Of a stretch of DNA of 64,000 nt, positions 30,661-61,585 are shown in pieces (the stretch's first letter is position 1; every line of letters begins with the position of its first letter). The DNA lies in assembly GCA_033297075.1 (NCBI GenBank), contig MU858065.1:124001-188000 (forward strand), in the 5' to 3' direction. The position numbers were made by a program, and so were the translations under genes. Below the pieces are notes generated by a model. That model saw only the letters and a program-made list of their open reading frames with translations. It was not told where the DNA came from and made no database searches. This DNA comes from Rhypophila decipiens. Lineage: Eukaryota; Ascomycota; Sordariomycetes; Sordariales; Naviculisporaceae.

Positions 30661-31022
30661 ACTTAGTAACACCCTCACCTATCCACTTACTCTTCTTATA
30701 ATATAATATAGTAGAGACTAGGAAATTTTCGGAATATGCAGACGTGTGACAGGAGAGTCATGTTCAGTGGCCAAACTGCTAGTATAGAGAGATCATTATG
30801 GATGAGAACAAATATGAGGCCGTGAATGTAACACTTCACGACGCAAAATGTAGGCAGACAAAAGCGGGGGCAGCTGCCTGCATGGTGTCGGGTGACTCGG
30901 GTCGGAGAATTGCGCCCAACACATCGAGCCCCTTGAGCCTCAATATCTCGTGTTCACTTTGTTAGGGCAACCCTGAGACAATTCGAGTGAGCAGATTTCT
31001 GCCCAGCCGAGTAAACCTCAAG

Positions 31023-33365
31023 ATGAGCATCAGAGATTTATATTCTTCTACAAGCCTCCGCACAAATCATCGTGACATTCGCCTCCTCTGCCTCCAGCCC
31101 TCGACTGATTTCCACTCCCCCATCGAATGCACCCTACAAGTCGTCTCGTTGGACCCAGAGCCAGGCCCAACCAAATTCTTACCACCAGTCTACAAAGCGC
31201 TGTCCTACGTCTGGGGCGACGACTCCGAGGCCAACAAGCGCCCCATCCTCGTGAACAATGCCCAAGTAAGAGTAACGCTCAACCTAACCCTCGCGTTGCG
31301 CCGTCTTCGAGCGCATCACACCAAGGACTTGCAAAACAACAAAAAGAATACCTCCAACTCCAAAACCCATTCGGCCAATTCTAAAGATGCCTCGGACGAA
31401 CCGCTAGTAATCTGGGTAGACGCAGTCTGCATCAACCAATCCGACAACGACGAGCGCGCAAGCCAAGTCGCCTTGATGGGGCGCATCTACAAGTCCTGCT
31501 CCACAGTCTGCGTCTGGCTAGGCCCCGTCGGGTGCGAAGACGTCCCTACCTGTCTGAAATGGGACGATCTACTTGCCTCATCCTCACTTCCCGTCGTTAC
31601 TAGTGGTGGAACGGCACCAGATATCGTCCTCGGGTTAGAACAATGTGCCCATAACTTTGCGACACTAGCCTCAGCCTCGTTTTCTTCTTCTTCTTCTTCT
31701 TCTTCTTTTGTTTCTAATCCTTCCGATTCAGCAAACCCAACTCCAACCCACCGGCAGAATATTCATTTTAGTGACCTCCCACCAACCGCCGCCGCCATTA
31801 ACTCTAACCCGCCCACTCATGAAACTACTACTACCAGTACCAGCTCAAAGTCAAACCAACTACTACTAGGCTCATCCATGACCCTCGCAATGCGCACCCT
31901 CTCCAACTCGCCATATTTCACACGAGCATGGGTAGTCCAAGAAGCCCACCTCTCTCCCAGCCGAGAAATCTACTTTGGCCACATAACCCTCCCCTCCACG
32001 ATCCTCTGGACAGTCCACTCCAATAGAAAACTAATGCGCGAGAACTGTACATGCTGCATCAGAGGCGAGGATCCTGCTGCCCTTTCTCAAGCAACGATGG
32101 AATTCCTGGGTAAATTGATTTCCCTCGCCGTGGTGCGGGATCCTGTTGGCTTGGTACGACAGACCGAGGATGCTGGTAGTATCAAGGGGGGGATGCCGCA
32201 CGAGGTGTATACCATGCCCGAAATGGGTATTCTGGACTTTACGATTCGAAGACGGAGACAGGAGTGTAAAGACCCTAGAGATAAAGTCTATGCTTATTTG
32301 GGTATTGTGGAGGATTGGCTGGAGATTGTGCTCAAATTGCTTGGACGGACTGGGCTGGATGTTGATATTGATTGCTCGGTTGATTATGACAAGGGAGAGA
32401 GTGTGGAGAGTAAAGCTGGAGAATTGTATCTACGGCTGTGCTGTGATGCAGTTAACAAGGGGCGATCGCTCGAGTTTTTGGGCTGGGATACGGGCAAGAG
32501 TATTGCTTTCAAGGGATTGTTGCCGTCTTGGGCGCTGGATTGGATGTACCATGGTGGTGGGAGTGGCGAGCAGATGAACATGTTTGATTGTTTCCGGTGG
32601 AAGGCGAATAAAGGGCTGAAGTTTGACGCTGGGGTGGTGGACCTCGCTGGCAAGAAGATCTTGGTTAGCAAGGCCAGCAAAAGAGTCGACAAGATTCTCA
32701 AGGTCGGTGGGCTGTACGGAACTACCGAGGAGGCTTGCAAAAACTGGCATGATATCACGGGACTGAGGGAAACCCCTGACGCAGGAGAGAAGAGGTATCC
32801 GAACGGAAAGGACTCGTGGGGAGACGCTTGGTGGAAGGCTCTTTGTTTTGTCAGCGACGACGCACAGCGGCGATGGGGCGACAAGGATATCCGCGCTCTG
32901 GAGCTTGTCAGCGCCATCGTTGACAAGTCGCATTGGAACTACCTGGCCAAGATGAAGATTTCCAGGGCGTGCAGCGAGACGCTGCCCGTCAAGGAGATTG
33001 TGCAGTCGCAGGAGATGATGGCGGATCTCTTCAAGAGCAGCATCACCCCGATCACTGGGGAGATGGCGCTGAGGCTTCAGGGTAGGGTCTTGTTTGTCAC
33101 GGAACGGGGGTATTTGGGGTTTGGCAGGGCCGGAATCCAAGAAGGGGACGAGCTGTTTTTGCTCGGTGGTTGCAAGACGCCTCTCATTATGAGAGCTCTG
33201 GAGGGCAAACAGGTCGAGCAAAGTGTGATGTTGGGGGCGTGTGATCTGAAAGGGGAGGGTTTGTATGAGCTGGTTACTGGCGCTTTTGTTTACGGAATTA
33301 TGGATGGTGAGCTGCTTGCGAACGACGATGATTCACCGGCATTGGAAACTATATGTGTTATGTGA
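31023..33365 (+). CDS. HET-domain protein
   Basis: A heterokaryon-incompatibility (HET, PF06985) protein of 780 aa in one exon. The start is the ATG at 31023 (MSIRDLYSS); the frame is open for 12 further codons upstream without another ATG. The HET domain spans about residues 55-190: YKALSYVWGD, ILVNNAQVRVTLNLTLALRR, LVIWVDAVCINQSDNDERA, and IYKSCSTVCVWLG. A Ser-rich spacer encoded by a (TTC)n-like run (about 31680-31710) splits the domain from the next conserved part, FTRAWVVQEAHLS. The C-terminal 400 residues have no domain I recognise. Family members trigger cell death on non-self contact, often as effectors of NLRs. An NLR lies 10 kb downstream, but a functional pairing is only inferred. 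Confidence 0.92.
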   Translation: MSIRDLYSSTSLRTNHRDIRLLCLQPSTDFHSPIECTLQVVSLDPEPGPTKFLPPVYKALSYVWGDDSEANKRPILVNNAQVRVTLNLTLALRRLRAHHTKDLQNNKKNTSNSKTHSANSKDASDEPLVIWVDAVCINQSDNDERASQVALMGRIYKSCSTVCVWLGPVGCEDVPTCLKWDDLLASSSLPVVTSGGTAPDIVLGLEQCAHNFATLASASFSSSSSSSSFVSNPSDSANPTPTHRQNIHFSDLPPTAAAINSNPPTHETTTTSTSSKSNQLLLGSSMTLAMRTLSNSPYFTRAWVVQEAHLSPSREIYFGHITLPSTILWTVHSNRKLMRENCTCCIRGEDPAALSQATMEFLGKLISLAVVRDPVGLVRQTEDAGSIKGGMPHEVYTMPEMGILDFTIRRRRQECKDPRDKVYAYLGIVEDWLEIVLKLLGRTGLDVDIDCSVDYDKGESVESKAGELYLRLCCDAVNKGRSLEFLGWDTGKSIAFKGLLPSWALDWMYHGGGSGEQMNMFDCFRWKANKGLKFDAGVVDLAGKKILVSKASKRVDKILKVGGLYGTTEEACKNWHDITGLRETPDAGEKRYPNGKDSWGDAWWKALCFVSDDAQRRWGDKDIRALELVSAIVDKSHWNYLAKMKISRACSETLPVKEIVQSQEMMADLFKSSITPITGEMALRLQGRVLFVTERGYLGFGRAGIQEGDELFLLGGCKTPLIMRALEGKQVEQSVMLGACDLKGEGLYELVTGAFVYGIMDGELLANDDDSPALETICVM

Positions 33366-43348: not shown

Positions 43349-46300
43349 ATGGAGCTTCGGGTTTCTGATGTCGGCATTTCCTCCGTCTATCGGCCAAAGC
43401 ATGGCGATCCGATTGTAGAGTAAGTCTTTGCCTTATTTCCAATGGACACTCTAAAACTCGGCCGCTGATATCTTGATAACAAAGTATCCTGTTCGTCCAT
43501 GGGTTTGACGGGCATCCGTTCAAGACATGGGCCAAGGACTCACCCAAAGGCTTGGCGCCTTGTTTTTGGCCCGCCGATTTGCTCCCAAGAGATTGTCCAG
43601 ACGCGCAGATTCTTGTATATGGATATGACCGTGGCATCTCACAATTCCCAACCAAAGATGTTGATAGGTCCGACATCTTCTCTCACGCCAACGACCGGTT
43701 ATTCTCCATGTCTCGTCCAGGTACAGATTCTGGAAAGTATACAGTCTACTCTCACGGCAAAGACCTGCTGTCCTCTCTTTCCCGCAGTAGAGATAGCAAT
43801 CGTCCTCTCATATTCGTTGCTCATGGCCTTGGTGGATTGATCGTCAAAGAGGTAACCAAGCCCGTCCTACGTGACTGACCTTCCTATACCGGTTCATTGG
43901 CAACCTCATATCATCACAGATGCTGACACGGTCAGATGCATCAAGCGAGAGCGGCCTGAGAAATATACTCGATTCCACCGTTGCTGTTATTTTCCTTGGG
44001 ACTCCTCATCGAGTCCCTGACAGCCGTAATGCATCAATACGCAATATCGACCTACAACCGACGAATCTTACACGTATTCAAGCTGAACGTCTTCAGGAAA
44101 CTTTCAGTACAATTTGGATGAAGCAAGGCTTCCGAGTGAAAACATTTCAAGAAGGGCTTGTTATCCTCGGGTTGGGCAACAAAGTCGTTACCGATTACTC
44201 CTCGTTACTCGGCAACCAACTTGAAAGAGCTGAGATTCTTAATGCAGATTATTCCGACATGTGCAGGTTTGCTGATGCCAATGATCCAAATTATCGCAAG
44301 ATAGCTTCGGAAATACTCTCTATTTTCCGGCCCTTGACCAAAGCCCGCGAAGAAGACAACGAGGACCCGCTGAGCAAAGCAGAGAAGACTTACCTGGGGT
44401 GCCTGCGCTTCCCACTCATGAATGTCCATCTCGACGATATGGCTCCGCCCGCCAAGGATACATGTCTTTGGCTCTTTTCCAATCAGCTGTACCAGAATTG
44501 GCTCCTGGATGTGGGTCAGGAGAGGTACAACGGTCTCCTCTGGCTAACGGGGTTCCCGGGCTCAGGAAAATCGATTTTGATGAAAGAGGCGTTTCGACGA
44601 GCTGAGCTAGAGCAGGGAAAGTCCGGTCATTCGGTTGCCGGATTCTTCTTCAATGGCAGAGGAGATCATCTCGAGCGCTCGCCTGTTGGTCTCCTCCGGT
44701 TACTGCTATATCAGCTTCTGGCTAAAGATCGATGGAATCTCCATCGCTTTCATGAGGCCTTCGCCAGCAAAGCTCGGGATGATTCCGATATTTTTAGCGA
44801 ACAGATCCTAAGCGCTTCCCTTGTCTCGATGTTCACCCGGCCCTCAGCGAAGAGAACCATCATTTACATCGATGCTCTCGACGAATGCGAATCTCACTGC
44901 ATCCAAGACCTACTTCTTCTCCTGCGCAAAATAACCATATCAGCATCTCAAGCCGGGGCGCGTCTTAGTGTCTGTTTCTCCAGTAGACAGTTTCCATTCC
45001 CTCGTGTTTCAGACTGTCCACAGATAATCATTCAGCATCACAACAGGCGCGATATCGCCACATACTTGGACGGGAGGCTTTGTGTTATGGACGAGCCACT
45101 TTGGAGAGCCTTGAGGAAGAAAATAATCACCAAGTCCGCTGGAATATTCTTTTGGGTGGCCTTGGTGACAGACGAAATTCTTCGGAAATGGGAGGAGGGT
45201 TATGGTCTACGGGCATTGCTAGCCGTACTGGATTCTCTTCCTCAGGAACTCGAGGATATGTTTTCCGCCCTGCTTCTATCATTGAATTCAGATTCTCGGC
45301 AACTCAGCTGTCGTTTATTCCAGTGGGCGGTTCAAGCAACCAAGCCACTACGTCTCCACGAATGGCAACATATATATGGCTTTATCCAGGAACCAACACC
45401 ATTATCCTTGCGTGAGTGGCGGAGCTCGGATAAATTTTCCGAAACCCCTTCCACACTTGAGAGGGTCATTGGAAATATCTCACGTGGCCTAATTGGCGTG
45501 AGAACTAGGGTGGAGGAACCCCGAGACCAGGACTTTGAATCAATGTCCATGCACGCTACTGCGGGATCGCTCCTTGAATACGGCGAAAACCGGGTGGTTG
45601 AAGTCATACATGAGTCGGTTCGTCAGTACTTCTTGCAAGGCAATGGTTTCCGCATCTTGGATCCAAGCCTCATAAGAAATCCTATCGGAGACGGACATCG
45701 CTTTATCATGGCCACATGTCTCCATTACATCAATATCACGGAGTTGGATCATCTTTCTAATGCGCGGAGTAAAGCAGCTGATAATCGGTCTGGTCCGGAT
45801 TCGCAGACAAGGGCGCAAACTACGGGGTCCGGATTATACAGCGCTAGGCGGCCATATGATCCCCCAGACAGCAATGCAACACAGGAACCTAGCGAGAGAA
45901 GCTCGGCCTTACCAGATAGCCAAGATGTATCCGCATATCTGGCCCATCTTGATGTTTTATACCAATCCGGGAAGACAAGGTCTGTCAACGTCGATCAGTG
46001 GATGACCAACCGAGTCGGAAACGACTTGAGTGATAGCCTGATTTCTAGGCCCATGTCAGCGCACAGCTCTGATACAAACATTTCGCTGGAGTCAAAACCG
46101 TCCCAGCTGCTGGAAGACTTTCCTGCGCTTCTCCCTTACACCACCTCTGAGTTGTTCACTCACGCTCAATTGGCCGAGGAGGCCGGGGTGGACCCCAGCC
46201 CGAACATTCACTTGTTGAAGGAATCCTGGGCTCGTTGGGTCGTGCTCAGTGAAAGTTTGCCTGAAGGAACAGATCTTCTTCAGTTCTTGAGGGACCGGGG

Positions 46301-49300
46301 TCTACCTCGGTGGGTGAGATGCCTTTCTGGTAATCCTGTGACAACCCCTAAGACTCCGGAGATGTCTCCAGAGCCGCAAGCGGTCGAGACAAAACGCAGT
46401 AACAATGACGAAACCGACCAAGAAACCGTTGATACGAGTCAGGCTAGAAGTGCTGGTTATTCGTCTAGTTTAAGCACAAATTTCGTTGACACTATCGATA
46501 ATTCTATCAACTATGGTCTGCATGATACGAGCTCTGATCTCACTTCTTGCACCCACGGGAGGTCGTTGCCGGTCCATACTTCCAAATATCTTGACGCTAT
46601 TCCGGAGGTCACGGGACAAGCACTCGAAGGCTCGATCCTGGAAGCACAACCGCAGGACGGCGCACAAGATGCGCAGAACCAGGGATTATATGACACCAAG
46701 ACAGACTATTCACCCTCAGAAACTTCCGCGCGCCCGCGCCCGCAGAACGACAGCTATGTGACCGATATGGCCAGTGAAGTGTTCGGTGCATTGAATTGTG
46801 ACGGAATGGACAAGGAGATAAACAAGCACATAGCCGAGAGCCTTCCAGTCCTTCTGAGGAGTTTCGCTCAAAAGCTTGGTCATGGAGCGCAAACAAAGCT
46901 GCACCAGGACGTCTCGTACTTCATTCACAAATACCGTTGGTATGTAACTGTCGATGAATCCATCTAACTCACGGGACCCAAGTTGCTAATGTTTCATACA
47001 GGAGGATTCGGGACGCCTTCGAGGACATGCTTCCGATAGAAGACGGCCCGGAAGTCCATCCTCTTAGCTCCGAACGCGCACCGCTAGGGCAATATGCTAT
47101 ACGTCGGATTTTTGATGAACCTGAGTTGGAGTACACTGCAGACGAACAGGAGGATGTGGCCGCTATGGATCATGCCGAAGAGCCTGTACTGCCAGGACTA
47201 GAGTCATTTGGCATCTTGAACCGAGCTGAGAATCGCGAGGAAACAGAAGACGATACCGACGACGACGACGACGACGAGCCAGAGCTAACAAAACCGCAGG
47301 GCCAAGGGTATCGAGAGTTCATCCTCAAGACTCCAGAATACATTTGGCTCTTGGCTTGTTTACGGAACGAATTGATATTAACCCATTCCCATCCCAACAT
47401 GATGGAAGAGATCAGACACAGGATACTTCGTGATCTTCCTTCCACATACAAGATCAGCAGGTCACGGCCGTCCCCAAGATATACAGCAATGTTTCAACTG
47501 AACTGGGACCCCCTCTCTTTCGTGACGGAGCAAGAATATGACCAGAAGCCTGGCCAAGCACTCGAAAAGGCCATCACTATTACTGGATCTGCGAACGACG
47601 CATATGCGGTGACTACCAAGGAGTACCTCTCACAGATATGGCCCGTCAGTGGGAGCCTCGTGATGCAGCTAGTGAACGATGTTGTCAGCGACACCAAAGC
47701 TTTGCGCGCCGCCAGTAAGTTCAACCAGCTACCCCCCGCTTTTGAGCTATAATTTCTCCTAACAATTGACCTTTAGTCGATCTACCGGATGGGACGAATG
47801 TGGAAGCACGTATTGAAGGAGCCAAACTGGTCGTAACTGCAGCTGGACCCGCAGAGTCTATTATCGAGACTTTGCAGCAGTTTGCTTGGATCGGCGCAGC
47901 ACTTCGATCATCATCGTTCGATACAGGAGTCGCAGTGTGCTCACCCTTGATACGAGATATACTGCCAGATGTTTCTGCGGAACCCGACCAGGAGGTATCA
48001 GCACGCATATTGTATGAGGTGGACTTTGAGATCGCTCCACCAACCGCTTACGACAAAACACCATCTTCTGGACAGTGCTGGCAAAACATGTTTCGGAACC
48101 CTGTCAGAGTTATCGGGTACCCAATATTGGCGAAGCACAACTCTGGACTGGGCCTCGAGATGCCGCTTGATATAATGGCAACCCTGGCTGGCTCCGATCG
48201 AGTCGGTCGTTTTGATGGGAAATTATATATCAAGGGGTTTTCTACCATGTTTATTGCCGTAAAGCTGACCCGAGACCTGCTCATCTGGCATTACTGTTAT
48301 AACCGGAATGGGGGAAGAATTTCCCACTTCGACCATGAGCTTCATGGCGTTGACGATATTGATTTAACACATTTGAGTACCGCTCGGCACGTGGTTGGCT
48401 GGTCCGACAAAAGCAGATACTACGCAGGTGAATAACCCTTGTTGAATACGCACCGATGATCTGTCACACTAACGCTCTGTAGGGGCCGCGGACGCGCGGT
48501 ATGATATAAAAGGGTCTGGCCTTCCAGGCCCAAGCGCCAGTTGCCTTCTGGACAAGGTAACAATATCCAGCGGAAGCATCATCAACATCGGGGCATCGTT
48601 TTTAGTTGGCGTTAAGGATACTCCAAAACATCTCACCCGAAAGGCATACATCCCGAAGCTTAGGTCGATTTATACGAAATACGTCGTTCTGTGGGACGAG
48701 GAAGACAAGAGGAGCTGGCTTGTTAATGGCACCAGCGCTTTGCTCCATCTCGTCCAAGCCTCACTCGAGGAGTACAGAAAAGACGATTTCTCGCGGTCAT
48801 TTCTCTGGGATTCTCGGAAGATGCAGGATCCAGTGGAAGATAGATACAAAGCTAATTCCGCCTCCCTTCTGCTGGGAAACCCACATAACTGGGGGATTGA
48901 AATCTATCCCGGCCAGGTCGAGCAGTTCGAGGAGGAGACGAGCCACATCGAGAGGAAGGACACAAATACCAAAGGTGCTGATGCTGCCGAGCTGACCAAG
49001 AAGCGGAAGAAGGGATACTACCTCTTCCAGGACCTGGTAGAACAACACTGCACGGTTCTGGAGCAGATCATGGATCACCAAGAGCAGCGGGCTGGTATGA
49101 ACGGGGTGAATATGAAAGTCAGGATTCGACAGCACTTGGAAGGGTGGGACTTTTTCGAGCCAGCGACTGATTCCAATCCGCGGCCGCGCGTTGCAACTCT
49201 CCGCGCGCTTGCGTATGGCTGGGTCGACTTTATCCACTCGATAGGTGCCATCACTCTCTTTGGGCGTGGTTTGGAGAGCTGATTCAGCCAATTCCATTTC

Positions 49301-50389: not shown

Positions 50390-51412
50390 TTAACCCTCAA
50401 ACCTCTCCGCATCGCCTTGGTCATTGTATCGAAACCGTTTACTCCAGTCAAACAACGCACCCCAGTCCCGACACTGGTGAACGCTCCCGAATCCATCCAC
50501 ACCTTTTCCCTCAGTCTCGGGCCCGAACGGTTCAAGGTTGTTATCGGCCGTGCACATGATACTCTCCCTCAGGTAGTCGACGCAATGCAATGTATGACTC
50601 TCCTCGAGGTTCGTCTCTGGCTGCTGCTTTGTAAAATCACCTTCGAGTCCTCTGACGGCGCGTTGGAGGGCAACGTGGATTAGGTACTAATCAATACGCG
50701 GGTATAAACAAAACTGGTTAGTCATGATGGCCATGATACTAGCCCATAGCCGTTGGAGTAACTAATTACTAGACTGAGAGAGGAGGGCGTGATTCTGGCA
50801 TGGCACACTTACGAGACAGTGAAGCTGGTGAAAGGCAGCTACACAGAAGCGTCCAGATCCATCCGTCTCCATGTGTTTATATACAAGAGGAACCTCTCCT
50901 GCGTCACGAATCTTGCTCATGGAGACGTATCCCGTTCCGGCTGTGAAAAGAGACAAGGCATTAGATCGTCATCAGCAAAGCGAATTCCATGTTTTCGGCA
51001 ATCATGTCTAGGAGGCAGCACACATACGAGGAAAAAACGACATCCACGCTCTCCGGGTGGAGTTCTCGTCGCCGTCGTCGTCGGGCATGTATAAGCTCGG
51101 CTGCCCCTTGAAGATATGTTGATGACCGCCGAGAGGAGGTATGCTTTGTAAGCCGGGGAGGAGACCACCACCCTTCTGATATGGAGCGGCCCGGGTCGAA
51201 GCTTTTATAACCAGGTCATAAAATGCTACTGTTCCAATGATGGAGATGACGGAACTGGCGAATGAAACGAGGCATAGGACGCGCAGATTTGAGAGGTCAA
51301 GAATGTTGTTGCGACTTGGGTAGTACCAAGAGGTGGTGAGAATGGGTTTGTCGTGACCTTGTTGGGAACCTGCCAGAAAGGGAATCTCGCTCTCTGAGGG
51401 GGTTTCAGACAT
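50390..51412 (-). CDS. UstYa-like oxidase (DUF3328), gene A
   Basis: DUF3328 proteins (UstYa/UstYb in ustiloxin, PhomY in phomopsin) are membrane-anchored oxidases that cross-link or desaturate ribosomal peptides. Exons are 51412-51028, 50940-50813 and 50686-50390, with exact phases; 269 aa. A cytosolic N-tail is followed by one transmembrane helix (about 43-69: VLCLVSFASSVISIIGTVAF). The two metal-site motifs are present: HQLHC (166-170) and HCVDYLR followed by ESIMC (205-216). After these comes the family ending VHQCRDWGALFDW. The HQLHC motif sits just before intron 2, a common intron position in the family. It is convergent with the NLR and lies 1.6 kb from gene B on the same strand. Confidence 0.93.
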
Positions 51413-53056
51413 GGCGATAGTGATGGTCCGTGGACGGTGGCAATGATTATACAATGATCTGGGCGATTTCAGGAAGTGTGACGTGGAATGGAGTGACAAG
51501 AAAGGTCATTGCCTGTCCATGTCTGAAGGAGGGGAAGAAACCAAAGCAGGGATTTTGTAGTGCTCCAAGGGGATCTTTGACCGCCATTCAAGGCGAATAA
51601 TAATACGCGGGAATTGTTTCCACAACATGCCTTTAGGGTTTAGTCGACAAGAGTCATGCCTGCGTATTGAAGAGTATCACAAGCTGTAACTTGGTAATCC
51701 AGATACCTAGAATTGTTTTCCCAGACCGCTCGTTCTCTCTCCCCGAGTCCCCGTACGCCCTTTGCTGTGAGAAGAATGCCATGAAACAGGTATATACTGC
51801 CTATGTTATTGTTCTTGTAAGCGCGGTGCACTGTTCAGTGTAACTTCATGATGCTTTACGACGGTAATGGAGTCCCGGTTGTGTCTCCTCAAGATCGTGA
51901 CGTAACATGGTACTGCGTCACTCCCACCGTCAGCTCACTTCTTTGCCAGATGGACTGAGTGTATTTCTGGTGCAGTGTAACTGGCAGGACCCCGAGATAA
52001 TGCCTTGTATTTTCTTTCTCGAGGCAGCCCTTGTGCAATGTCCATTGCATACTCGGCAGGAACTTGGGCGTATCAACTGCTACCTTCCCCATTGCTCTTT
52101 AATTAGTAGGGAAAATAATTCACCACAGGTTGTGGCCAGAATGGGCCAGGATTGATACCATGGGTTTGCCAGATGCAAGTGTGATTGTTTACGAGGCAGA
52201 GCACCTCAGAGGTGGACCTCTGATCATGTGAACGATGCGTCTTCGACATGGAGACTTTATATGGCAGGTGGGATTCGAAACAAGTGCATCTAGGAGCGCG
52301 CTCAGACGAGATCGACAGTCACATCGGAGCTTGTGCAATCCCAGGAGCACCTATTTATGGAATATCTGCTATTAGTGATATCCTGCATGGCCCGGGTGGG
52401 ATGCCTGCCATGATTCCAAACTTGAATAGTTACTGGGGGAGATCGGTCATACGAGGGGAGTATTACCACTGCATTAATGCATGTCCCTTCATGACGCTTG
52501 GTCATCATGTGTAGTATTATTGTTTATACGCTTGCTAGTTCAACGGCTGTGGTATCTCCGGAAGAGGTTGGCCGGTGCGCGAAGCTGATCGTGGGGGGCA
52601 CCGGGAATAGGGAAGCGGAGCCGGCTTACGTCTACTGCAGGACTTCATCGGAGTAGTATTGTACCTCGAAATTGGCCATTTGATTGGAACAAGAGCCGTA
52701 TACAGAAATACTACCATAGAATGATCAATGGGTCTTGTTTCGGATTTTCTAATTCTTGGGACTAATGCGGGGAGTAGGGCTGACAGTCAGCAGGCAGCTG
52801 CGGACTAATTATTTCAGCACAGTCCTACTCAGAGCATTTTCAGGTGGTGAACTTTAATCAAACGTTTGTATCAAGGTAACATGCATGTGGGCCATAATTA
52901 TCCAGCATGCTCATTCCGGCCAATTACGAACTCGAGTATTATTCTTGTGATTATGCATGTATCCCGGTTCTTTCAATTGGCAGCATCTCCCTCAAAAAAT
53001 AGGTATGCCGAGGCTTTGTTCAGAAATCCTTCTATTTGACACCAATAATGGCAGCC
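51413..53056. other. Intergenic between the two UstYa-like genes
   Basis: 1.6 kb. An 88-codon ATG frame at 52248-52514 has no motif or intron support. No other gene seen. Confidence 0.45.
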
Positions 53057-54336
53057 TCAAGGCGGTCGTGGCCAGACCTTGGACCCTGCGGGCATGGGAT
53101 ATCCCGTCGCCGGGACCGGAGGCACGACATGATCCTCTATCCAGCTCTCAACGCTATCGAGATCACGGCACTTGTGAACCGTGTTGAAGTTTGCAAATGG
53201 GTCTCTAATATTCTCGACCCAGTGGTGGGGGATCACCCCCAGATCAGCATTGCACATAATCACCTGCCGGAGCATCTCGAAGCAGTGACCTGGATTCGAT
53301 GGTCAGAACCACGCTTTGTTCCAGAAATGGTTATGACACGGAGAATGCCAGTGGTCGAGAAACTTACTAATGTGCACTTTGATGGTTATGGGATTGTCAT
53401 TGAGCCAGTCGGCCCACATCTTGTTCTCTGGCTTCTCATAGTATTCGCGATGGTAGGCTTGGCGGATGACGTTGAGGCACTTGCTCCGGAGCCTGTGGTT
53501 AGCATGAACTCAGGGTTAGGGTTGTAGCCCGGGCATACGTACATGCATCTGATGGCTAACCTCAAGGAAACCAATGTAGCCACCACCAAATTCCGGCGTG
53601 AACTTGGCCGAGCCTTCCAAGTCCATCCCCATCTCGGCAAACTCTTGTTCCGAAAAGCTGGCGTATTTTACTGAGCGACAAGTTAGTCAAGCACAGAGTG
53701 GTAGAGTTTCTTGGGGCTCGACGAACCAAACTTACCGAAACCCCATTTGTTCCAGTTGCGATCCATCTGCTCGTTGGGATCTCCCCAGTGGCCACTGAAC
53801 TCGGAGTTTTTGCCAAGTGTGCCTGCGGACTTTTTAGTCGGGCGGATTCGAAAAGAAAAGACAGCTGATGATGGAAAATCAACATACCATTGAACTTGAC
53901 GTCATGGAGTTTGTTGCTGACTTGATTCATGACGGTTGCTAATGTTTTTTCAAATGTTAGGAATAATAGAACCAACGAGAGTTTATTTTTCGCAAACGAG
54001 ACAAAACGTACAATATTTCGAGGTGTGCCTCATGCATTTGGCATCCACGTCTAGGGACGGCCAGCTTCTTCCTAGCAGAAACCCGCTCAGAATACCAAGA
54101 GACAGGAAGGAGAAGACGGCAACCGCCATGTGCAAGTAGCCAAATCCTCGTCGCAGACGAAGAACTGGGTAGCCGCCAGAAAGCATCGCCTGGGCCTCCT
54201 CTTCCTGGCCGTCCAGGGTGTCTTGATCGGAGCTGCATCCTCGTTGGGTCTTTTCTGGATCGGAAACAGGCATAGCTGAGTATGACTGGGACCAGCGACC
54301 GGGTAGGGCTTTGATGACTTGGTCCAGGGGCTTCAT
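53057..54336 (-). CDS. UstYa-like oxidase (DUF3328), gene B
   Basis: Six exons: 54336-54012, 53938-53888, 53822-53736, 53670-53543, 53479-53368 and 53289-53057; 311 aa with all phases exact. One transmembrane helix (about 66-88: FGYLHMAVAVFSFLSLGILS) follows a long acidic N-tail. The catalytic motifs are complete: HQMHC (194-198), reassembled across the fourth intron, and SHCFEMLRQVIMC (235-247). The ending VHKCRDLDSVESWIED is typical. The fifth exon needs the acceptor GGAGCAAG rather than the earlier CACAG, which would shift the frame; only this choice restores HQMHC. It is transcribed away from the peptide precursor gene across a 0.8-kb shared upstream region. Gene B is diverged from gene A, as in pathways that use two different UstY enzymes. 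Confidence 0.93.
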
Positions 54337-55127
54337 TTCAACTCAGTAGTGATGAAGTCCAACATGAACAGGCTGAGAATGAGATTCGAGGAGAGGGGGA
54401 GAGTTGGCGAAATAGTCTCCCTTGAAATGGGTGAACAAACCGGGGTTAGCTAGAAGGGCGGCATATAATAATCCAGTGGATATACCCCGCGAGGGTTCCC
54501 CTCACAGACATTGCCAAAAGGGGCAGCTATGAAGGTCGATGGAGAATCACATTTACGGATTCCAGACCGCTCGTATGCGAGAGTTGAACATCTCTTCTCA
54601 TGCTCGTTCATCCTGCAGGTTGATGACAGCCGAGGGTTGGACAGGACCTCGAGTACTACTCTGAGTAATGTAACAGTCAGTAGGTAGAACAACATGGAGG
54701 GTGGAGTAATGAACATTATGGAAAATGCAGATGGGTACCTAGAGACGTCAATTAGGACAGGCCATCGTATACCGTGTCACCGAATTGAATTGCTTTCAGG
54801 CTGAGGTTTACCTGCCGCTTTTTTCTCAAGTCTCCCCCTGGGCCCTTAGGCGGCGAGGACCAAATGTGGACCGATATTTTGGCTGTATCTGTCTGTATCC
54901 ACGAGTTCAAAGTGTGAGACAACTTGATCTGATGTGCAATTCGCATTGACGCTGGCAGATGTGATTCGAGTTTGCAAACATAAATACTGGTAGCTGCCGA
55001 GACCAAGACCCAGCATCAGGCCAGCCACCCTCATACACTTCAAACCTCAGAAGGCCTTCTCCATTCCGCAACATTTTGAGCACTCTTTACAACCAACTTC
55101 CCAAGTCCCAACCCCCAAACCAGCAAA
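54337..55127. promoter_or_regulatory. Divergent promoter region of UstYa-B and the precursor
   Basis: Both sides have a TATA-like element at the usual fungal distance: ATTATTATATG-like sequence about 130 bases before gene B (near 54464-54474, minus strand), and CATAAATAC about 145 bases before the precursor start (near 54979-54987). Shared regulation is inferred from the layout. Confidence 0.5.
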
Positions 55128-55478
55128 ATGGTCAAATTCATCGCAGCTCTCGCTCTTGCCCTGGCAGGTCTCGCCGCCGCCGCTCCTGCTCTGGACCACG
55201 CTGCCGTCAAGCGTACCAATTCCTATCCCAAATATGGCAAAGCCGACGACTACGAAGCAGTCAACAGCAACGAGAGGCGCACCAATTCCTATCCCAAATA
55301 TGGCAAAGCTGAAGACTACGAAGCGGTCAACAGCAATGAGAAGCGCACCAATTCCTATCCTAAATATGGCAAAGCCGAAGACTACGAGGCGGTTAACAAC
55401 GACAAGGAGAAGCGCACCAATTCCTATCCCAAATATGGAAAGGCCGAGGATTATGAGGCAGTCAATGGCAAGGAGTAA
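55128..55478 (+). CDS. Kex2-processed repeat peptide precursor (ustiloxin-type RiPP)
   Basis: 116 aa, one exon. Residues 1 to about 20 are a signal peptide (MVKFIAALALALAGLAAAAP). After the site KR (28-29) come four near-identical repeats separated by RR (50-51), KR (72-73) and KR (95-96), all Kex2 sites. Each repeat begins TNSYPKYGKA(D/E)DYEAVN and ends in a variable acidic spacer (SNE, SNE, NDKE, GKE). The layout is that of the ustiloxin, phomopsin and asperipin precursors: secretory leader, tandem cores, dibasic cleavage. Each repeat has three Tyr (positions 4, 7 and 13), the usual target of UstYa cross-linking. I cannot tell which part is the final core. The repeats are also nearly identical in DNA. 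Two UstYa genes lie beside it. Confidence 0.9.
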   Translation: MVKFIAALALALAGLAAAAPALDHAAVKRTNSYPKYGKADDYEAVNSNERRTNSYPKYGKAEDYEAVNSNEKRTNSYPKYGKAEDYEAVNNDKEKRTNSYPKYGKAEDYEAVNGKE

Positions 55479-56794
55479 ACAGTACCGAAGACATTGTAAC
55501 TAGCTTAGTTCTCGGGGAGGGGGGCAGAGATGCATGCAATTCTTGGAGGAGGAGGAGGAGGTTTTGTGTTTCATAATTATGGATGATGTGCGTGCAAGGT
55601 TGTTAGTTGGGTACCTACCTACTGCTAGTATGATGAGACGGGAGTAGCTCTGAATTTTGGTCGCAGTGGATCTTGTTGAGTACTAGGAGGTTGATTTCCT
55701 TGTTTGGTTTGGCAGGAATAGTATGCAATGCAGACACAGTCGTTTCCGTACAGACATCTGAGCTTATCCCTGTTCTTTGCCAGCGATGATGTGACTCGTA
55801 TTCTAGGCGTTGACTACTATCCCATGTAAAAAGGGGGATGCTTTACCTTACCCTCATGTAAGTTTCAGGGCCCATTGCATGAATCAGCAACAACTCGAAC
55901 GTTACTGATAGGCATACCCGTGTTAAGTCCGTGGTCTTTTCGATCGGGTATATCCCCTAGATTCTAAATTCCCATGCAACATATTCGGCGGGGACCGTAT
56001 ATTTGGTAGTATTGCAAATGGCAGGGTATCCGGCTTGCCAGGTCATGGTTTGTGTGCTCTCAGATCGGTTAAACTTTCAAGTATCGGAATGGCTGTAATG
56101 AGTATAATTCCTCTTTTGATTAATGAACCTCTCGTACCACCTGACGCTAGCTACCTGCCCAAACGGTTAATGACAAAGACTCTTTGTCACTGTGTGAGCG
56201 GAGCTGCATGTCAGCTGCAGGACAGATCAAGTGCTTATCCACGGCACTCGTTTCTTGTGGTGTGCTACCTTGTCCCACTAACGTAATCTTAAAGCTTGAC
56301 CAAGGAGAGACATGGATGTGTCGTACACCCGTAACAAGGCGCTGGGCTGCGTTCACTAATTTCAGCGAGGTGCCGAGGGAAGGTGTCTCCAAGAGTAGCG
56401 GTCTGAAGCTCAACTTCCATAGATCACCAGCCAGTACTGAATACGATGTTATGGGCGACCCGGAATTCTTTGCGACTTGCCGCTCAGCAACCCACATGAT
56501 GTAGTATGCTCGTACTCGTTGTCGGAGGAGACGTTGACATCAAGTTGGTGTTGCATCAAGGGAGGCGACGAGCTGCACCCCAATTAGACTGTGGTGATTA
56601 TTTTGATCGTCCATCGATAACGAGCTTTGTGGTTGTCTGCTCGACGAGCGGGGCAATTGACTTGCTCAGGTTGGGTATTAAGGGAGATCCCACATCTTGT
56701 TACCCTTTTCCCTCTGTCCGAGTATCAAGTAACAGGGTTGTACGCCAATCTACGACTGGCGACTGTTAAGACCGCCTGCTTTGGACTCTCTACG
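55479..56794. other. Intergenic, 1.3 kb
   Basis: It contains a short GGA-rich tract (about 55545-55561) directly after the precursor. A 106-codon frame at 56184-56504 lacks support. No gene called. Confidence 0.45.
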
Positions 56795-57567
56795 ATGGAC
56801 CAGTATGTTGGTCAGTTCATCTGCCCCAGTGAGCAGAGTCTCAAACCATCACTGCTAACATCCATAGAATCTCAGCCACCGTGAAACGATTCCTGCCCAA
56901 GTCCAAGGAAGACGGGTACGCAAACATCAGCACAAACGATCAAGACAACTATTCAGAACCTCCAAGGACCAAAGACTGGCGGCCGTCAACACTCCTCTCG
57001 GCCCTCCTCAAGCTCACAATAATTTCCCTTGCCCTCCACAGTCTGATAAGCCTAAGCATCACCACCATCACAACTTTCTTTCTTGCGGCCTCTCTGCCGC
57101 CATGTTACTGCGGCACCTCCGTATCCGAAGCAGTCTCCCTCAACTGCAAATTCGACTCCCTCTCGACCTCGTGGCTCCCGCCCCACTGTCGCGACGACGA
57201 GCTCACGGCGCTCTTTGAGCGCGCAGGTCCCGGCCCCAACGGAGAATGGACCTACTACAGGACCCAGCCCCACCTCGGCGACAACCTCACGGCCGCGGCA
57301 AAATTCACGGTGGACGAGCTGGCCCTGTTGTCGGAGAAGAGCGAGGCAGAGCGCCAGGTTGTGGCCACGGTCGAGTGGCATGATAAGCACTGCTTCTTTT
57401 TGCTGCTCAAGATGGTCCGGGGCAAGGCGCCGAGGATGGGCTATACGGGGTTTCCCGAGGTCTTGGGGCATGCGGAGCATTGTGCCATGTCCATGGTGCA
57501 GGCCCAGGGCGTTCCGGGGTATTATCCTATTATCGGCGTTGTTCCGGGATTTGGCGATCCTGTTTGA
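56795..57567 (+). CDS. Membrane protein with two HxxHC motifs, possible third peptide-modifying enzyme
   Basis: Exon 1 is 8 nt (56795-56802, ATG GAC CA), followed by a GTATGT donor and CTAAC..CATAG acceptor; exon 2 is 56868-57567; 235 aa. One transmembrane helix (about 46-79) leads to a lumenal domain with CGTSVSEAVSLNCKFD, SWLPPHCRDDEL and then two HxxHC motifs, HDKHC (174-178) and HAEHC (204-208). This belongs to a common fungal family with C-x(9-10)-C-x-F/YD, W-x-P-x-x-C and paired HxxHC, to my knowledge uncharacterised. The topology and the two His/Cys sites recall UstYa, which has HxxHC and HCxxxLR. A role in the pathway is inferred from this similarity and the location. Confidence 0.75.
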
Positions 57568-57974
57568 GATGATTGGATGTAGTTTTAATGGGGGAAGTGA
57601 TCTCTTGCCTAGTTCCAAGTTGGCATACATCTAGATTGTCCACGCAAAGAAGTGAGGAATGATTGACACTGGGTGGACATGCCGTTAATTGTAGTACAGA
57701 TCATTGTTATAACTTGGGTGGGATTGAAGCCTTCGATGCCGTGCCGTGATTACACCTGACGCTCCGTGTAACCCGGTTACTTACCGACCGATGTCCAGTT
57801 TGTCAGCAATCGGTGGGGAAGGTGCTGCTTTTATCCGTACCACCTCAGCTTCCACTCCCACAGTCCCACTGGCAATTCAAGTTCCCTTTCATACCTCATC
57901 AACAACAAAACCCCCAACCCAGCTTTCTCAACACGACACAACACAACACAACCCAGGCAGAAAGGCTCATCACA
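57568..57974. other. Intergenic, upstream of the GNAT gene
   Basis: About 400 bases; the last 100 have CA-rich leader sequence before the GNAT start. No gene seen. Confidence 0.5.
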
Positions 57975-58880
57975 ATGGTAGCCACCCAACCCCCCCTCCC
58001 AATCAACATCATGCCCCTCCAATACGCCGACATCCCCATCGTGTCCCGCAACACGGCCTCGGCATTCGCCGTCGACCCCCACACGCTGGTTAAACAGCTC
58101 GGCAAAGGCGGGTACGACATGTACGCGATTTCCTCGTCGGGCTTTTTGGACAACCTGGGCAAGAAGAATTACATGCACTTCAAAGCTGTCAGTGTCGATC
58201 CCACTACTAATGATGATACTGGAGAAACTACTATCCTCGGCCACATCAGCTGGGCCTTTCGCGGGGTTTCCGATCAAGAGCTGGACAAGATGCCCCGTCC
58301 CCACCAGCCGCCTATTACCGCGGAGGAGGCCACAAATACAATCGTCACCGTCGCTGCTGAGGACGAGAATACCACTACCACTGCTGCGGCTGCGGTGGCC
58401 GATGACGAAGAAGCAACAAATAAAATCCAGCGCCTTCACGACCTCGAAGATGAGGATATGCAAGCTTGGATGTCAAGCATTGTTCCTCCAGGCCCGTGCA
58501 TCTTTGTCACCGGCTTGATAGTTGCGCCTGGCTATCAGTCTCGTGGAGTCGGCAGTCGACTCTTGCAAAAGTTGAACGAGACGGCTGATGCGATGGGCTT
58601 GTGCGTGTGGGTGCACTCTAGCCATCAGGCCTATCGTGCTTATCACAAGGCTGGGTTCGAGGTTACAAGGGTTTTGGAGCTCGATTTGGACGAGTGGGCT
58701 ACCAGGGGACCGAGGGAGGATGAGGCTGTGATGGGGGATTTGAATTTGGATGGGACAAGACAAGGCGGTGAACTGGGAGGAAATGGATTGGAAGAGGGGG
58801 AGCAAGGGCAGAGGAAATGGGGGCGGTATATCATTCGGTACTTGAAGAGAGAACCTCGGTTTCCTGCCAGTAGTGTTTGA
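57975..58880 (+). CDS. GNAT-family N-acetyltransferase
   Basis: 301 aa, single exon from the ATG at 57975; an open frame extends upstream but only through GTG. The acetyl-CoA-binding motif A is VTGLIVAPGYQSRGVGSRLL, followed by the motif-B part AYRAYHKAGFEVTRVLELDLDEW. The N-terminal half begins with a typical fungal GNAT strand (MPLQYADIPIVSRNTASAF) and then carries an insert rich in Thr/Ala (TTTTAAAAVADDEEA) before motif A. Substrate unknown. It sits next to the peptide genes and could acetylate a peptide amine, but GNATs are common and it may be an ordinary neighbour. Confidence 0.85.
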   Translation: MVATQPPLPINIMPLQYADIPIVSRNTASAFAVDPHTLVKQLGKGGYDMYAISSSGFLDNLGKKNYMHFKAVSVDPTTNDDTGETTILGHISWAFRGVSDQELDKMPRPHQPPITAEEATNTIVTVAAEDENTTTTAAAAVADDEEATNKIQRLHDLEDEDMQAWMSSIVPPGPCIFVTGLIVAPGYQSRGVGSRLLQKLNETADAMGLCVWVHSSHQAYRAYHKAGFEVTRVLELDLDEWATRGPREDEAVMGDLNLDGTRQGGELGGNGLEEGEQGQRKWGRYIIRYLKREPRFPASSV

Positions 58881-59135: not shown

Positions 59136-61585
59136 TTACCTCCATGCAGGACTAGACCCCCCAGCACCCCAAGAACCACCATAATTCCATTCCCCTGGTC
59201 CAAGTGAATTAGGGGTGGCAGCTCGTTCAGCCAGCCCCCACAGCACCCCCGAATCAGCCTCGAGTCCCTCTATACCACCCAACAACTCGCCAGTCCCCAT
59301 ACCACCAGAAACATGCAGCTGCGCCGCATACGGGAACCAATCCCTTCCTCGTTCGAGACCACTCGGGCTTGTAATCAGCAGCTTGAATACCAACCCAGTG
59401 TCTCCCCTGCTATTTGTCGCTGCAACTAGGTTGACCAGACTTGCCAGGTATTGCATCACCTGGTCCATCTGGCCAATGTGATGTCCTGTTTCGAAGAAGC
59501 TCGCGCCGTCGATGAAGCAGATTATTTTTGATGATGATCTGTTCGTTATCATGGCTGAAGTGAAGCTATTGAGGACTGTGTCGAGGAGAGTGCAAAGAGA
59601 AGGAATGTCGCCGTACTGAACTGCCTGTAGGACATTATTGATCTGGTACGGATTATGCCCCATGGCGGCCATTAAATATTGCGATATGAGCTCCGGAACG
59701 GGATGTTGTAGGATTATTTGAGCGATGACGGACCGTAGAAGGCCAACTGGACCGAGGACGACATCATTCGTGTTAGTTGCGTCGGAGTGGAGATGACAGA
59801 AGAACAAGGCTGTATGTATCGAGGGCACATCGAGGATACCCGCGAGCTGGACGGTTAGATAAGAAAATGGGGAGATCCTCGCGTTGTGGCTGTGGGAGTT
59901 GAGAGCGTCTAGATCCGAGCCATTGAGCAGTAGTACCGAGGACCCGGAATTTGGGCTTAACCAGGCCTTGAATTGTTCATCCTGGAGCACAGTAGACAGG
60001 ATGCGGTCGGCGCGCGAGGATATTTGTCTTCCCTGGTTCAATATCAGTTGCCTTTCGTCTGTAATCTGTTGGACGATGGAGTTGGCAATGTCAGACGCAT
60101 GCGAGTGGGCAAGGTTGAGGGCTTGCAATATCTGTGGGACGGTGATCATTGCTGCTGAACTCCGAGGACTTGGCGGTTGATGGGCTACAGTCAAGGGGTA
60201 TGTATTGGAACTGTCACCGCCTGTGAGGTTTACGTCCGCTATTAGGCGCTGGATGTGTTGTGCTTGCAACATCTGACGAATGCTGTCCTGGCTGGCTGCC
60301 AAAAGTTCCTTGTCTCGGCGGTCTCGTTCCACCCATTCGACCATAACTAGCAATGTTCAAGTTAACAACCTGTGAAGCCCTTCAAGCACTAGTGGGGTTT
60401 CCTTACGTTCTCTTACATCCCTCAGCAGATTCTCAACAGTGTAGCCGGCTGCAGTGACCTTTCTGAGTTCTCCAACGGTCTGTTCTATCTTTCCGTCGAT
60501 GATGTCGATGGTCTTCCCGACCGTAACAACGTTTGTGGCAATGGCGCGTGTTTCGAGGGTCAGGCAGGTTCTGACAGCTCGTTCAAAGGCTTCCACCTTT
60601 TCTTTGATGTTGGTTGACACTTGGGTCTCTAGCTCGCTTCCGTAGTCGTTTTGTAGGGCTATGGCTTTGCCGGCTTGGAATAGTTGCCCCCGGACTATAG
60701 AAGGGCGATTAGCGCATGACGAATGGAAGAAAAGTCATCTCGTTATGGAGCTGAGATGATTGGGCATTAAACAGAATCGGATTGAATCATGCTTTTTACG
60801 CGCAGACAATGAATGGACAAGGATGAAAGGATGTTCGGTCGTTGGGAACGTTGGTCCGAGCTGGACAAAGGCAAGCAAACTGTTGGTACTCACATCCTTT
60901 TCGCTTTTCAATCCACACCATGATTGCCTCGACAGCATCGAGGATGGCAACATACAAATCCTCCGATGTCTTCCGAATGTTTTCGTCCCAGGCGTATTCC
61001 CGTATGAGGATTTTGGCAAAACTGATTTCGGAATCGAGGGATTCCAAGGCACCAATAATGACCTCTCTAAGCTGTCTGTTCCGGTTTGCTGCCTGTCCAC
61101 GCCTGTTAGCAAAGAGCAAGCATCAAAGCGTTGAAGTATGTGGTTACACTGTAAGCCAGCTTCAGGCCTCCGCACAGGACGCCCAAGTAATCACCATTGG
61201 GGATCAGCTGAGTCAAAAACTCTAGCCGGGTTGCTGTGCTTCCAACCAAGCGCTTCGTTCTACGAAACGGATTGTTCCATGTCTTTCCCTGGTTGACATA
61301 TTGATCGACAGCTTGCTCCGCTTCCTGGCGGACATCCTCCCATGACGTGGCAGATCGGAAAGCGTTGTAGGCCTGGGGATCGCCTTGAGAAGAGAGAAGG
61401 TTCTGAATAAAGGTCTGAAACCGTTTTTTTCTGGATTTTAATCGTTCCGAGACTGGTGGCAGCTTGTGCTTCTCGAGAGCCTGTTCCAGTCCCCATGCCG
61501 GATCTACATCGGGAGCTTTGTGGATGATCCAGCGGCCTGTGTCGTCTAGAGCCTGAAATGGTTGAAGGGATGTCGTCGTTGCCAT
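59136..61585 (-). CDS. DUF7708-type STAND-like protein
   Basis: 711 aa in four exons: 61585-61148, 61092-60894, 60694-60407 and 60346-59136; phases exact. The order matches fungal DUF7708 proteins: an N-terminal helical domain (NPFRRTKRLVGSTATRLEFL), the DUF7708 helices (REVIIGALESLDSEISFAKI, YVAILDAVEAIMVWIEKR), a coiled-coil linker (TVGELRKVTAAGYTVENLL), then an ATPase-like domain starting SSVLLLNGSDLDALN. The normal P-loop (GxxxxGKS/T) is missing; a Walker-B-like IICFIDGASFFE is still present. Loss of the P-loop seems usual in this family. Such proteins are placed among NLR-like incompatibility candidates; the function is not known. It is divergent from the AAA gene. The second acceptor (GGACAG at 61093) is chosen because it keeps the frame. 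Confidence 0.75.

Follow-up and report, generated by a model that had tools for sequence, protein, structure and literature searches.

A likely dikaritin-type RiPP gene cluster in Rhypophila decipiens with a new precursor family and a recurrent companion of UstYa genes

The DNA analyzed here (the window) comprises 64,000 nucleotides of contig MU858065.1 of the ascomycete Rhypophila decipiens (assembly GCA_033297075.1), and gene coordinates follow the numbering of this window. Toward its right end lie a gene for a secreted-looking repeat protein (the precursor), two genes of the DUF3328/UstYa family (UstYa_A and UstYa_B), a gene for a further membrane protein (gene C) and a GNAT-family acetyltransferase gene (Table 1). 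We consider it likely that this locus is a small gene cluster of the dikaritin type. Dikaritins are ribosomally synthesized and post-translationally modified peptides (RiPPs) that derive from Kex2-repeat precursors and are cyclized by UstYa homologues (PMC10512285). Its products very probably form a new family of ustiloxin-like, enzyme-modified peptides. Clusters of this kind are already known, as DUF3328 genes were found beside 1758 Kex2-repeat proteins (22% of 7878), almost never beside those of mating type (PMC7329392). New here are the precursor family, which spans Sordariales and Xylariales, and the recurrent family of gene C.

A secreted precursor with four Kex2-bounded repeats had been proposed in a preliminary description of this DNA, and the gene bears this out. 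The hydrophobic N-terminus, judged by eye to be a signal peptide for the endoplasmic reticulum (ER), is followed by a short pro-stretch ending in KR. The repeats start at residues 30, 52, 74 and 97, preceded by the dibasic sites KR, RR, KR and KR. The spacers between them read SNERR, SNEKR and NDKEKR, and the last repeat, which is not followed by a Kex2 site, reaches the C-terminus (GKE). At the DNA level, Tandem Repeats Finder reports a unit of 66 bp in 3.8 copies (score 368), and the sole other tandem array between 48 and 62 kb has a 13-bp unit. Across the six pairs of repeats, 34 codon differences are synonymous and 3 are non-synonymous; we therefore conclude that selection maintains the repeat peptide. 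A structural protein, secreted or of the cell wall, might likewise be short, secreted-looking and repetitive. This explanation is hardly credible here, as dibasic sites part the repeats, their number varies (four here, three in each of three relatives) and the gene recurs with oxidase genes.

Cross-species protein searches were run with the precursor, UstYa_B and gene C as queries. The precursor search found three relatives, in Rhypophila sp. PSN 637, Xylaria polymorpha and Hypoxylon sp. NC0597, each with three repeats. In its own genome the precursor has no second copy, a search at E 10 giving one match. The positions T1, N2, Y4, Y7, Y13, E14, V16 and N17 are invariant in 13/13 repeats of the four precursors, seven of these eight (all except E14) having been preset by the pattern used for extraction, which missed none of the 4+3+3+3 repeats held by the full sequences. 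Repeat positions 3, 5, 6 and 9 are S, P, K and K in Rhypophila, whereas they are G, I, G and S in Xylaria and Hypoxylon. The most plausible core of the repeat would be the Y-x-x-Y-G block, and recognition would most plausibly fall to the YEAVN end. As already suspected in the preliminary description, the repeat is unlike the dikaritin cores set beside it: it differs from YAIG, FYYTGY and YVIPID, the cores of epichloecyclin and victorin lying outside this comparison. A search of open-access literature gave no previous report of the repeat, nor of YPKYG in combination with Kex2 or DUF3328, and an unlabelled listing in supplements, for example the tables of PMC7329392, is possible.

The two oxidase genes are complete and mutually diverged, as had been claimed. 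Against a PF11807 cut-off of 25 bits, UstYa_A scores 85.8 bits (on a 265-aa draft model) and UstYa_B 151.7 bits (on a draft one residue off the final model). UstYa_A is also matched by PF11807 in a scan of the whole genome, each protein has two HxxHC motifs, and the two share 29% identity over 117 aa. The claim that one of them is divergent from the precursor likewise holds, for UstYa_B. According to the coordinates, the 791-bp stretch between the two start codons is a possible shared promoter region.

Table 1. Features of the putative cluster in window coordinates (TM, transmembrane segment)
Feature	Position	Strand	Description
UstYa_A (DUF3328/UstYa)	50390-51412	minus	3 exons (51028-51412, 50813-50940, 50390-50686); 269 aa; HQLHC + HTLHC; GT-AG splice model
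UstYa_B (DUF3328/UstYa)	53057-54336	minus	6 exons; 311 aa; HQMHC + HISHC; GT-AG splice model
Intergenic stretch, UstYa_B to precursor start codons	54337-55127		791 bp; genes divergent
Precursor (Kex2-processed repeat protein)	55128-55478	plus	116 aa; signal-peptide-like N-terminus; 4 repeats TNSYPKYGKA[ED]DYEAVN
Gene C	56795-57567	plus	exons 56795-56802, 56868-57567; 235 aa; single TM; CxCG...C...CRD Cys cluster; HDKHC + HAEHC
GNAT-family acetyltransferase gene	57975-58880	plus	PF00583

The genes also recur in other species. The UstYa_B search listed 26 proteins, to which identity is 93% for P0004 (Rhypophila sp. PSN 637) and 59-69% for the Xylariales and Hypocreales relatives P0005-P0009 and P0011-P0014. 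For 3/3 precursor relatives, a UstYa_B orthologue is found on a contig of identical size (54403 in PSN 637, 229659 in Xylaria polymorpha and 107658 in Hypoxylon sp. NC0597). In Xylaria polymorpha, the UstYa_B orthologue and the precursor relative carry the adjacent tags CIB48_g664/g665, and such neighbouring tags are stronger evidence of linkage than equally sized contigs. The preliminary description had asked whether the precursor family occurs elsewhere without UstYa neighbours; this was addressed in part, with a favourable outcome, a UstYa_B orthologue being listed on a contig of equal size for 3/3 relatives. An ustiloxin-like RiPP cluster has been reported in some Hypoxylaceae (PMC8403587), and Rhypophila species have been isolated from dung (PMC12734299).

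The same evidence bears on the idea that the precursor gives rise to a linear peptide, secreted as a signal or in the manner of a pheromone, and that the UstYa genes are unrelated neighbours. Kex2-repeat proteins do include alpha-pheromones, and 6120 of the 7878 are without DUF3328 neighbours (PMC7329392). In addition, the precursor relative P0002 gave a sub-threshold match to MF_alpha_N (13.4 bits, cut-off 22). However, the window precursor itself has no MF_alpha or MF_alpha_N match in Pfam at E 0.1, and UstYa_B recurs with the precursor in all three relatives, across two fungal orders. Moreover, places with two or more UstYa genes no further than 5 kb away make up only about 0.16% of the genome (about 0.87% for at least one), PF11807 having yielded 67 exon-level matches in 45.7 Mb, which correspond to about 48 gene-like units at 34 loci. 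We thus consider a linear peptide beside chance neighbours very unlikely.

With regard to class membership, the locus combines a predicted ER signal peptide and Kex2-bounded repeats with UstYa/DUF3328 proteins that carry two HxxHC motifs each, and DUF3328 has since come to be treated as the defining feature of the class (PMC12048977). An earlier, stricter definition called for a tyrosinase and an S41 peptidase in the cluster; the four-gene asperipin-2a cluster is likewise without either. On the window contig (C21), there is no match for tyrosinase (PF00264; 60 exon-level matches on other contigs) or S41 peptidase (PF03572; 4 on other contigs), and the architecture is therefore nearer to that of asperipin-2a than to that of ustiloxin. 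The 60 PF00264 matches amount to a large tyrosinase complement in this genome. No methyltransferase, pyridoxal-phosphate (PLP) enzyme, transporter or isoflavone reductase was recognized in the 30/83 open reading frames (ORFs) of at least 150 aa that were scanned with Pfam, in the window and the adjoining 19.8 kb on its right, where short exons could escape. The earlier suggestion of minimal chemistry stood as far as tyrosinase and S41 peptidase on the contig are concerned, but gene C appears to be a third UstYa-like protein and recurs with UstYa_B.

Asperipin-2a of Aspergillus flavus is made by a four-gene cluster (aprA, aprY, aprT, aprR) with one UstYa-type enzyme, and its core FYYTGY is cyclized via Tyr ethers (PMC6514808). 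Like the locus described here, it combines a Kex2-repeat precursor and a UstYa-type oxidase with the lack of a tyrosinase, and its core contains Y-x-G-Y, the same spacing as YIGY of the Xylaria and Hypoxylon relatives. It differs in the repeat, which here is TN-x-Y-x-x-Y-G...YEAVN, in having one UstYa gene as opposed to two plus gene C, and in its transporter and isoflavone reductase, neither of which was recognized among the ORFs scanned here. The ustiloxin B cluster (ustA, ustYa, ustYb, ustQ) shares the signal peptide, the Kex2 repeats and the presence of two UstYa-family genes alongside the precursor gene (PMC10512285). In contrast to ustiloxin B, the contig has no tyrosinase match, the scanned ORFs include no methyltransferase or PLP enzyme, and the precursor has 4 repeats instead of 16, with a core unlike YAIG. 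Phomopsin (phomA, PhomQ and, as counted in PMC7329392, five DUF3328 proteins) is similar in having several HxxHC membrane proteins for one Kex2-repeat precursor, and dissimilar in its tyrosinase (PhomQ) and S41 peptidase, unmatched on the contig here, and in its core YVIPID.

We posit that the precursor enters the ER via its signal peptide and that Kex2 would release peptides of about 20 residues (TNSYPKYGKAEDYEAVN followed by a short tail). UstYa_A and UstYa_B would be secretory-pathway membrane proteins whose HxxHC...HxxHC centres face the lumen, and may oxidize the released peptide with copper and O2. The biochemical reference for such a centre is CctR, the DUF3328 hydroxylase of cyclochlorotine, described as a membrane-bound dimer with a binuclear copper site formed by HxxHC(x)nHxxHC ligands, which uses O2 and Cu(I) (PMC12435403). 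CctR also has a single TM helix like the proteins considered here; unlike them, it acts on a non-ribosomal peptide, which it hydroxylates, and has no precursor gene. The most likely reaction would link the phenol oxygen of a Tyr to a beta-carbon within TN-x-Y-x-x-Y-G, for example between Tyr4 and Tyr7, and the constant [D/E]-Y-E-A-V-N end may serve in recognition or as a second site. Gene C could provide the pathway with a third HxxHC membrane protein, of diverged sequence, serving either as a further oxidase or as a partner of UstYa. The processing, the type and site of the cross-link, the role of each oxidase and the secretion of the product are inferred, as is cyclization itself.

A variant that is compatible with the proposed dikaritin-type cluster is that its UstYa enzymes catalyze beta-hydroxylation, dehydrogenation or halogenation and that the peptide is not macrocyclized. 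CctR hydroxylates (PMC12435403), phomopsin homologues desaturate (PMC10512285), and two or three distinct HxxHC proteins would allow more than one reaction. On the other hand, the invariant Y-x-x-Y with variable residues between resembles a ring-forming pair, and Tyr is commoner in DUF3328-linked precursors (65.6% versus 38.2%; PMC7329392). We regard this variant as unlikely.

Several points weigh against the interpretation as a dikaritin-type cluster with a cyclized product. Cyclization is not the sole option because enzymes of the UstYa family also hydroxylate, desaturate and halogenate. The homologues of the precursor number only three, and the conservation searches took in the precursor, UstYa_B and gene C. 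Equal contig size is an indirect sign of linkage and, on contigs of 1.0 Mb and 6.9 Mb, of little use for judging distance unless tags are close. The precursor also exceeds the cut-off for PF11518, an unrelated domain (34.5 versus 26.4 bits); this match covers 23 residues of the repeats, no single stretch passes on its own, and we judge it to be spurious. Finally, three other UstYa-bearing stretches of the same genome, sampled as a control (10 kb at each of C306, C251 and C167; 3/30 remaining loci), differ in architecture from the window cluster. Well supported at the gene level by the anatomy of the precursor, the motifs and Pfam scores of the UstYa proteins and the recurrence with UstYa_B, the dikaritin-type cluster put forward in the preliminary description nevertheless remains the reading that we favour.

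Gene C had been noted as a membrane protein with paired HxxHC motifs, and it does have both. It corresponds to QBC37DRAFT_80813 (P0030) of R. decipiens, with 99% identity over its length and two residues differing at the first splice junction. No Pfam family exceeds its cut-off for gene C, PF11807 reaching 13.2 bits where 25 are required, and NCBIfam gave no match for gene C or UstYa_A. Within the gene C family, E 0.1 against PF11807 is reached by 7/54 members, the best at 1.2e-4. In a single hhalign comparison of the gene C and UstYa_B profiles, both HxxHC motifs align (probability 55%, E 1.2e-4). The AlphaFold model of P0030 (pLDDT 81, pTM 0.69) has helices at residues 43-78, 171-187 and 201-215, and the latter two carry the HxxHC motifs. 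As modelled, gene C thus combines a TM anchor with two HxxHC helices, and a two-helix HxxHC arrangement has been described for CctR (PMC12435403). Foldseek with this model returned nothing at E 0.001 in PDB or BFVD, and neither the UstYa_B nor the gene C profile matched the sequence of any solved structure at E 1. The structure model of UstYa_B is poor (pLDDT 61) and supports no claim. On the basis of profile and model we read gene C as a far relative of UstYa outside PF11807, and because it appears distantly UstYa-like the locus would hold three membrane proteins with paired HxxHC motifs.

The gene C search yielded 59 proteins, of which 54 were aligned. Left out were P0054, P0056 and P0057 of Aspergillus niger/luchuensis (assumed, without measurement, to be near repeats of kept rows), the two-domain partial protein P0081 and the 143-aa fragment P0086. 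The family has one TM helix, and C82, C84, C96, C110, W130 and C178 are invariant in 54/54 aligned relatives. Both HxxHC motifs are retained in 40/54; the other 14 (P0055, P0058-P0062, P0064, P0066, P0067, P0069, P0070, P0075, P0087 and P0088) are without one or both. Motif-poor relatives, with for example FVARC or NWHHC, keep the cysteines 82, 84, 96, 110 and 178, and most of these 14 are unnamed proteins. As the presumably lumenal Cys 82, 84, 96 and 110 together with W130 and C178 are thus more constant than the HxxHC pair, a thiol or copper carrier may fit better than a plain oxidase. P0081, from a 5,575-base contig of Beauveria asiatica, is a single predicted partial protein in which a UstYa domain is joined to a part resembling gene C; it may be a fusion or the result of two neighbouring genes being merged by annotation. 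For the tag of one Aspergillus niger homologue of gene C, no mention was found in the open-access papers searched.

In five cases, UstYa_B and gene C orthologues occur on equally sized contigs: PSN 637, Cladobotryum mycophilum, Hypoxylon crocopeplum (106085), Xylaria cubensis (1016200) and an 18,182-base public contig. The two orthologues carry the close tags PT974_07853/07855 in Cladobotryum mycophilum, and in PSN 637 gene C (V8F33_012884) adjoins the precursor (V8F33_012885). All 26 UstYa_B hits were aligned, and trees were computed from 18 of them plus the window model and from 21/59 gene C hits. In both trees Rhypophila stands apart from Xylariales and Hypocreales, several inner forks being weak, and the trees neither prove nor exclude horizontal transfer.

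Within the R. decipiens genome, two queries led to the same six places with relatives of gene C: one on the window contig, two on C53, two on C326 and one on C155. These searches score the best candidates only, and more distant members may escape. None of the six is among the PF11807 matches, and they lie 1.3 to 3.8 kb from such a match. It could be argued that neither gene C nor the GNAT takes part and that the working cluster consists of the precursor and the two UstYa genes. The low PF11807 score of gene C would agree with this, as would the C306 locus, which has UstYa genes and a Kex2-repeat precursor (YNGDDEGADKKKR x5) with no gene C relative. For gene C, this is contradicted by the five shared-contig cases with UstYa_B, the close tags in Cladobotryum and the precursor-adjacent tag in PSN 637. 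A further objection is that 6/6 genomic family members lie no more than 4 kb from a UstYa match, although the 5-kb surroundings of such matches cover about 0.87% of the genome. We therefore hold it improbable that both genes are bystanders, although for the GNAT such a role is likely.

The 10-kb stretches at C251 and C167 showed neither a repeat precursor nor a gene C relative. Conversely, on C326 (whole contig, 18.5 kb) and C155 (19.8 kb), UstYa genes and gene C relatives are present and a repeat precursor was not found. Given C306, C251 and C167 without gene C and C326 and C155 without a precursor, we conclude that gene C accompanies some of the UstYa loci and is not strictly bound to repeat precursors. 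On C326 and C155 the precursor may have been missed or lost, or the enzymes may use another substrate. PMC12435403 hypothesizes an unnamed accessory protein that delivers Cu(I) or electrons to enzymes of the CctR type. Because its cysteines are invariant and UstYa genes stand beside all six genomic places, gene C is a candidate for such a partner. We tentatively suggest, while considering it unlikely in this specific form, that this family without a Pfam or NCBIfam model serves some UstYa oxidases by supplying Cu(I) or electrons or by forming a mixed dimer.

Only five dikaritins had been reported as of 2022 according to PMC10512285. A defined precursor family is of value in this context, as the natural comparison of its repeats marks the residues likely to react and yields masses to look for. 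Once freed of their dibasic ends, and before any other trimming, the linear peptides of the window precursor would have monoisotopic masses of 2263.987, 2278.003, 2434.092 and 2262.044 for repeats 1 to 4, and every oxidative cross-link would reduce these by 2.016. The gene C family, in turn, is a recurrent UstYa companion unnamed in Pfam and a candidate for the hypothesized copper or electron partner of this enzyme class.

Two further Kex2-repeat precursors were observed in the genome. One, on C53 (C53:10811-11131, minus strand), has a signal-like N-terminus and the repeat TDNSAAGVVTWADVSKR x4, with one match in the genome. Next to it stand two relatives of gene C and a UstYa pair in divergent orientation, all within about 6 kb. 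This cluster thus resembles that of the window in its repeat precursor, UstYa pair and gene C-type proteins, and differs in its repeat, which contains Trp and no Tyr; any cross-link would therefore need another residue, for example Trp. The other is the precursor at C306 (L025:3420-3985, minus strand), which lies between UstYa genes and has an apparent upstream signal exon in another frame.

The GNAT gene is probably a neighbour of the cluster. The family assignment made in the preliminary description was confirmed (PF00583, 38.8 bits, cut-off 20.7), and the sequence has one match in the genome. It might conceivably N-acetylate the peptide. TM segments throughout were called by eye or from the model. 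The cluster is surrounded by a HET-domain gene and NPHP3_N (NLR-type) genes at window positions 30966-33362, 43875-46964 and 59139-60356, the third of these matches being under its Pfam cut-off.

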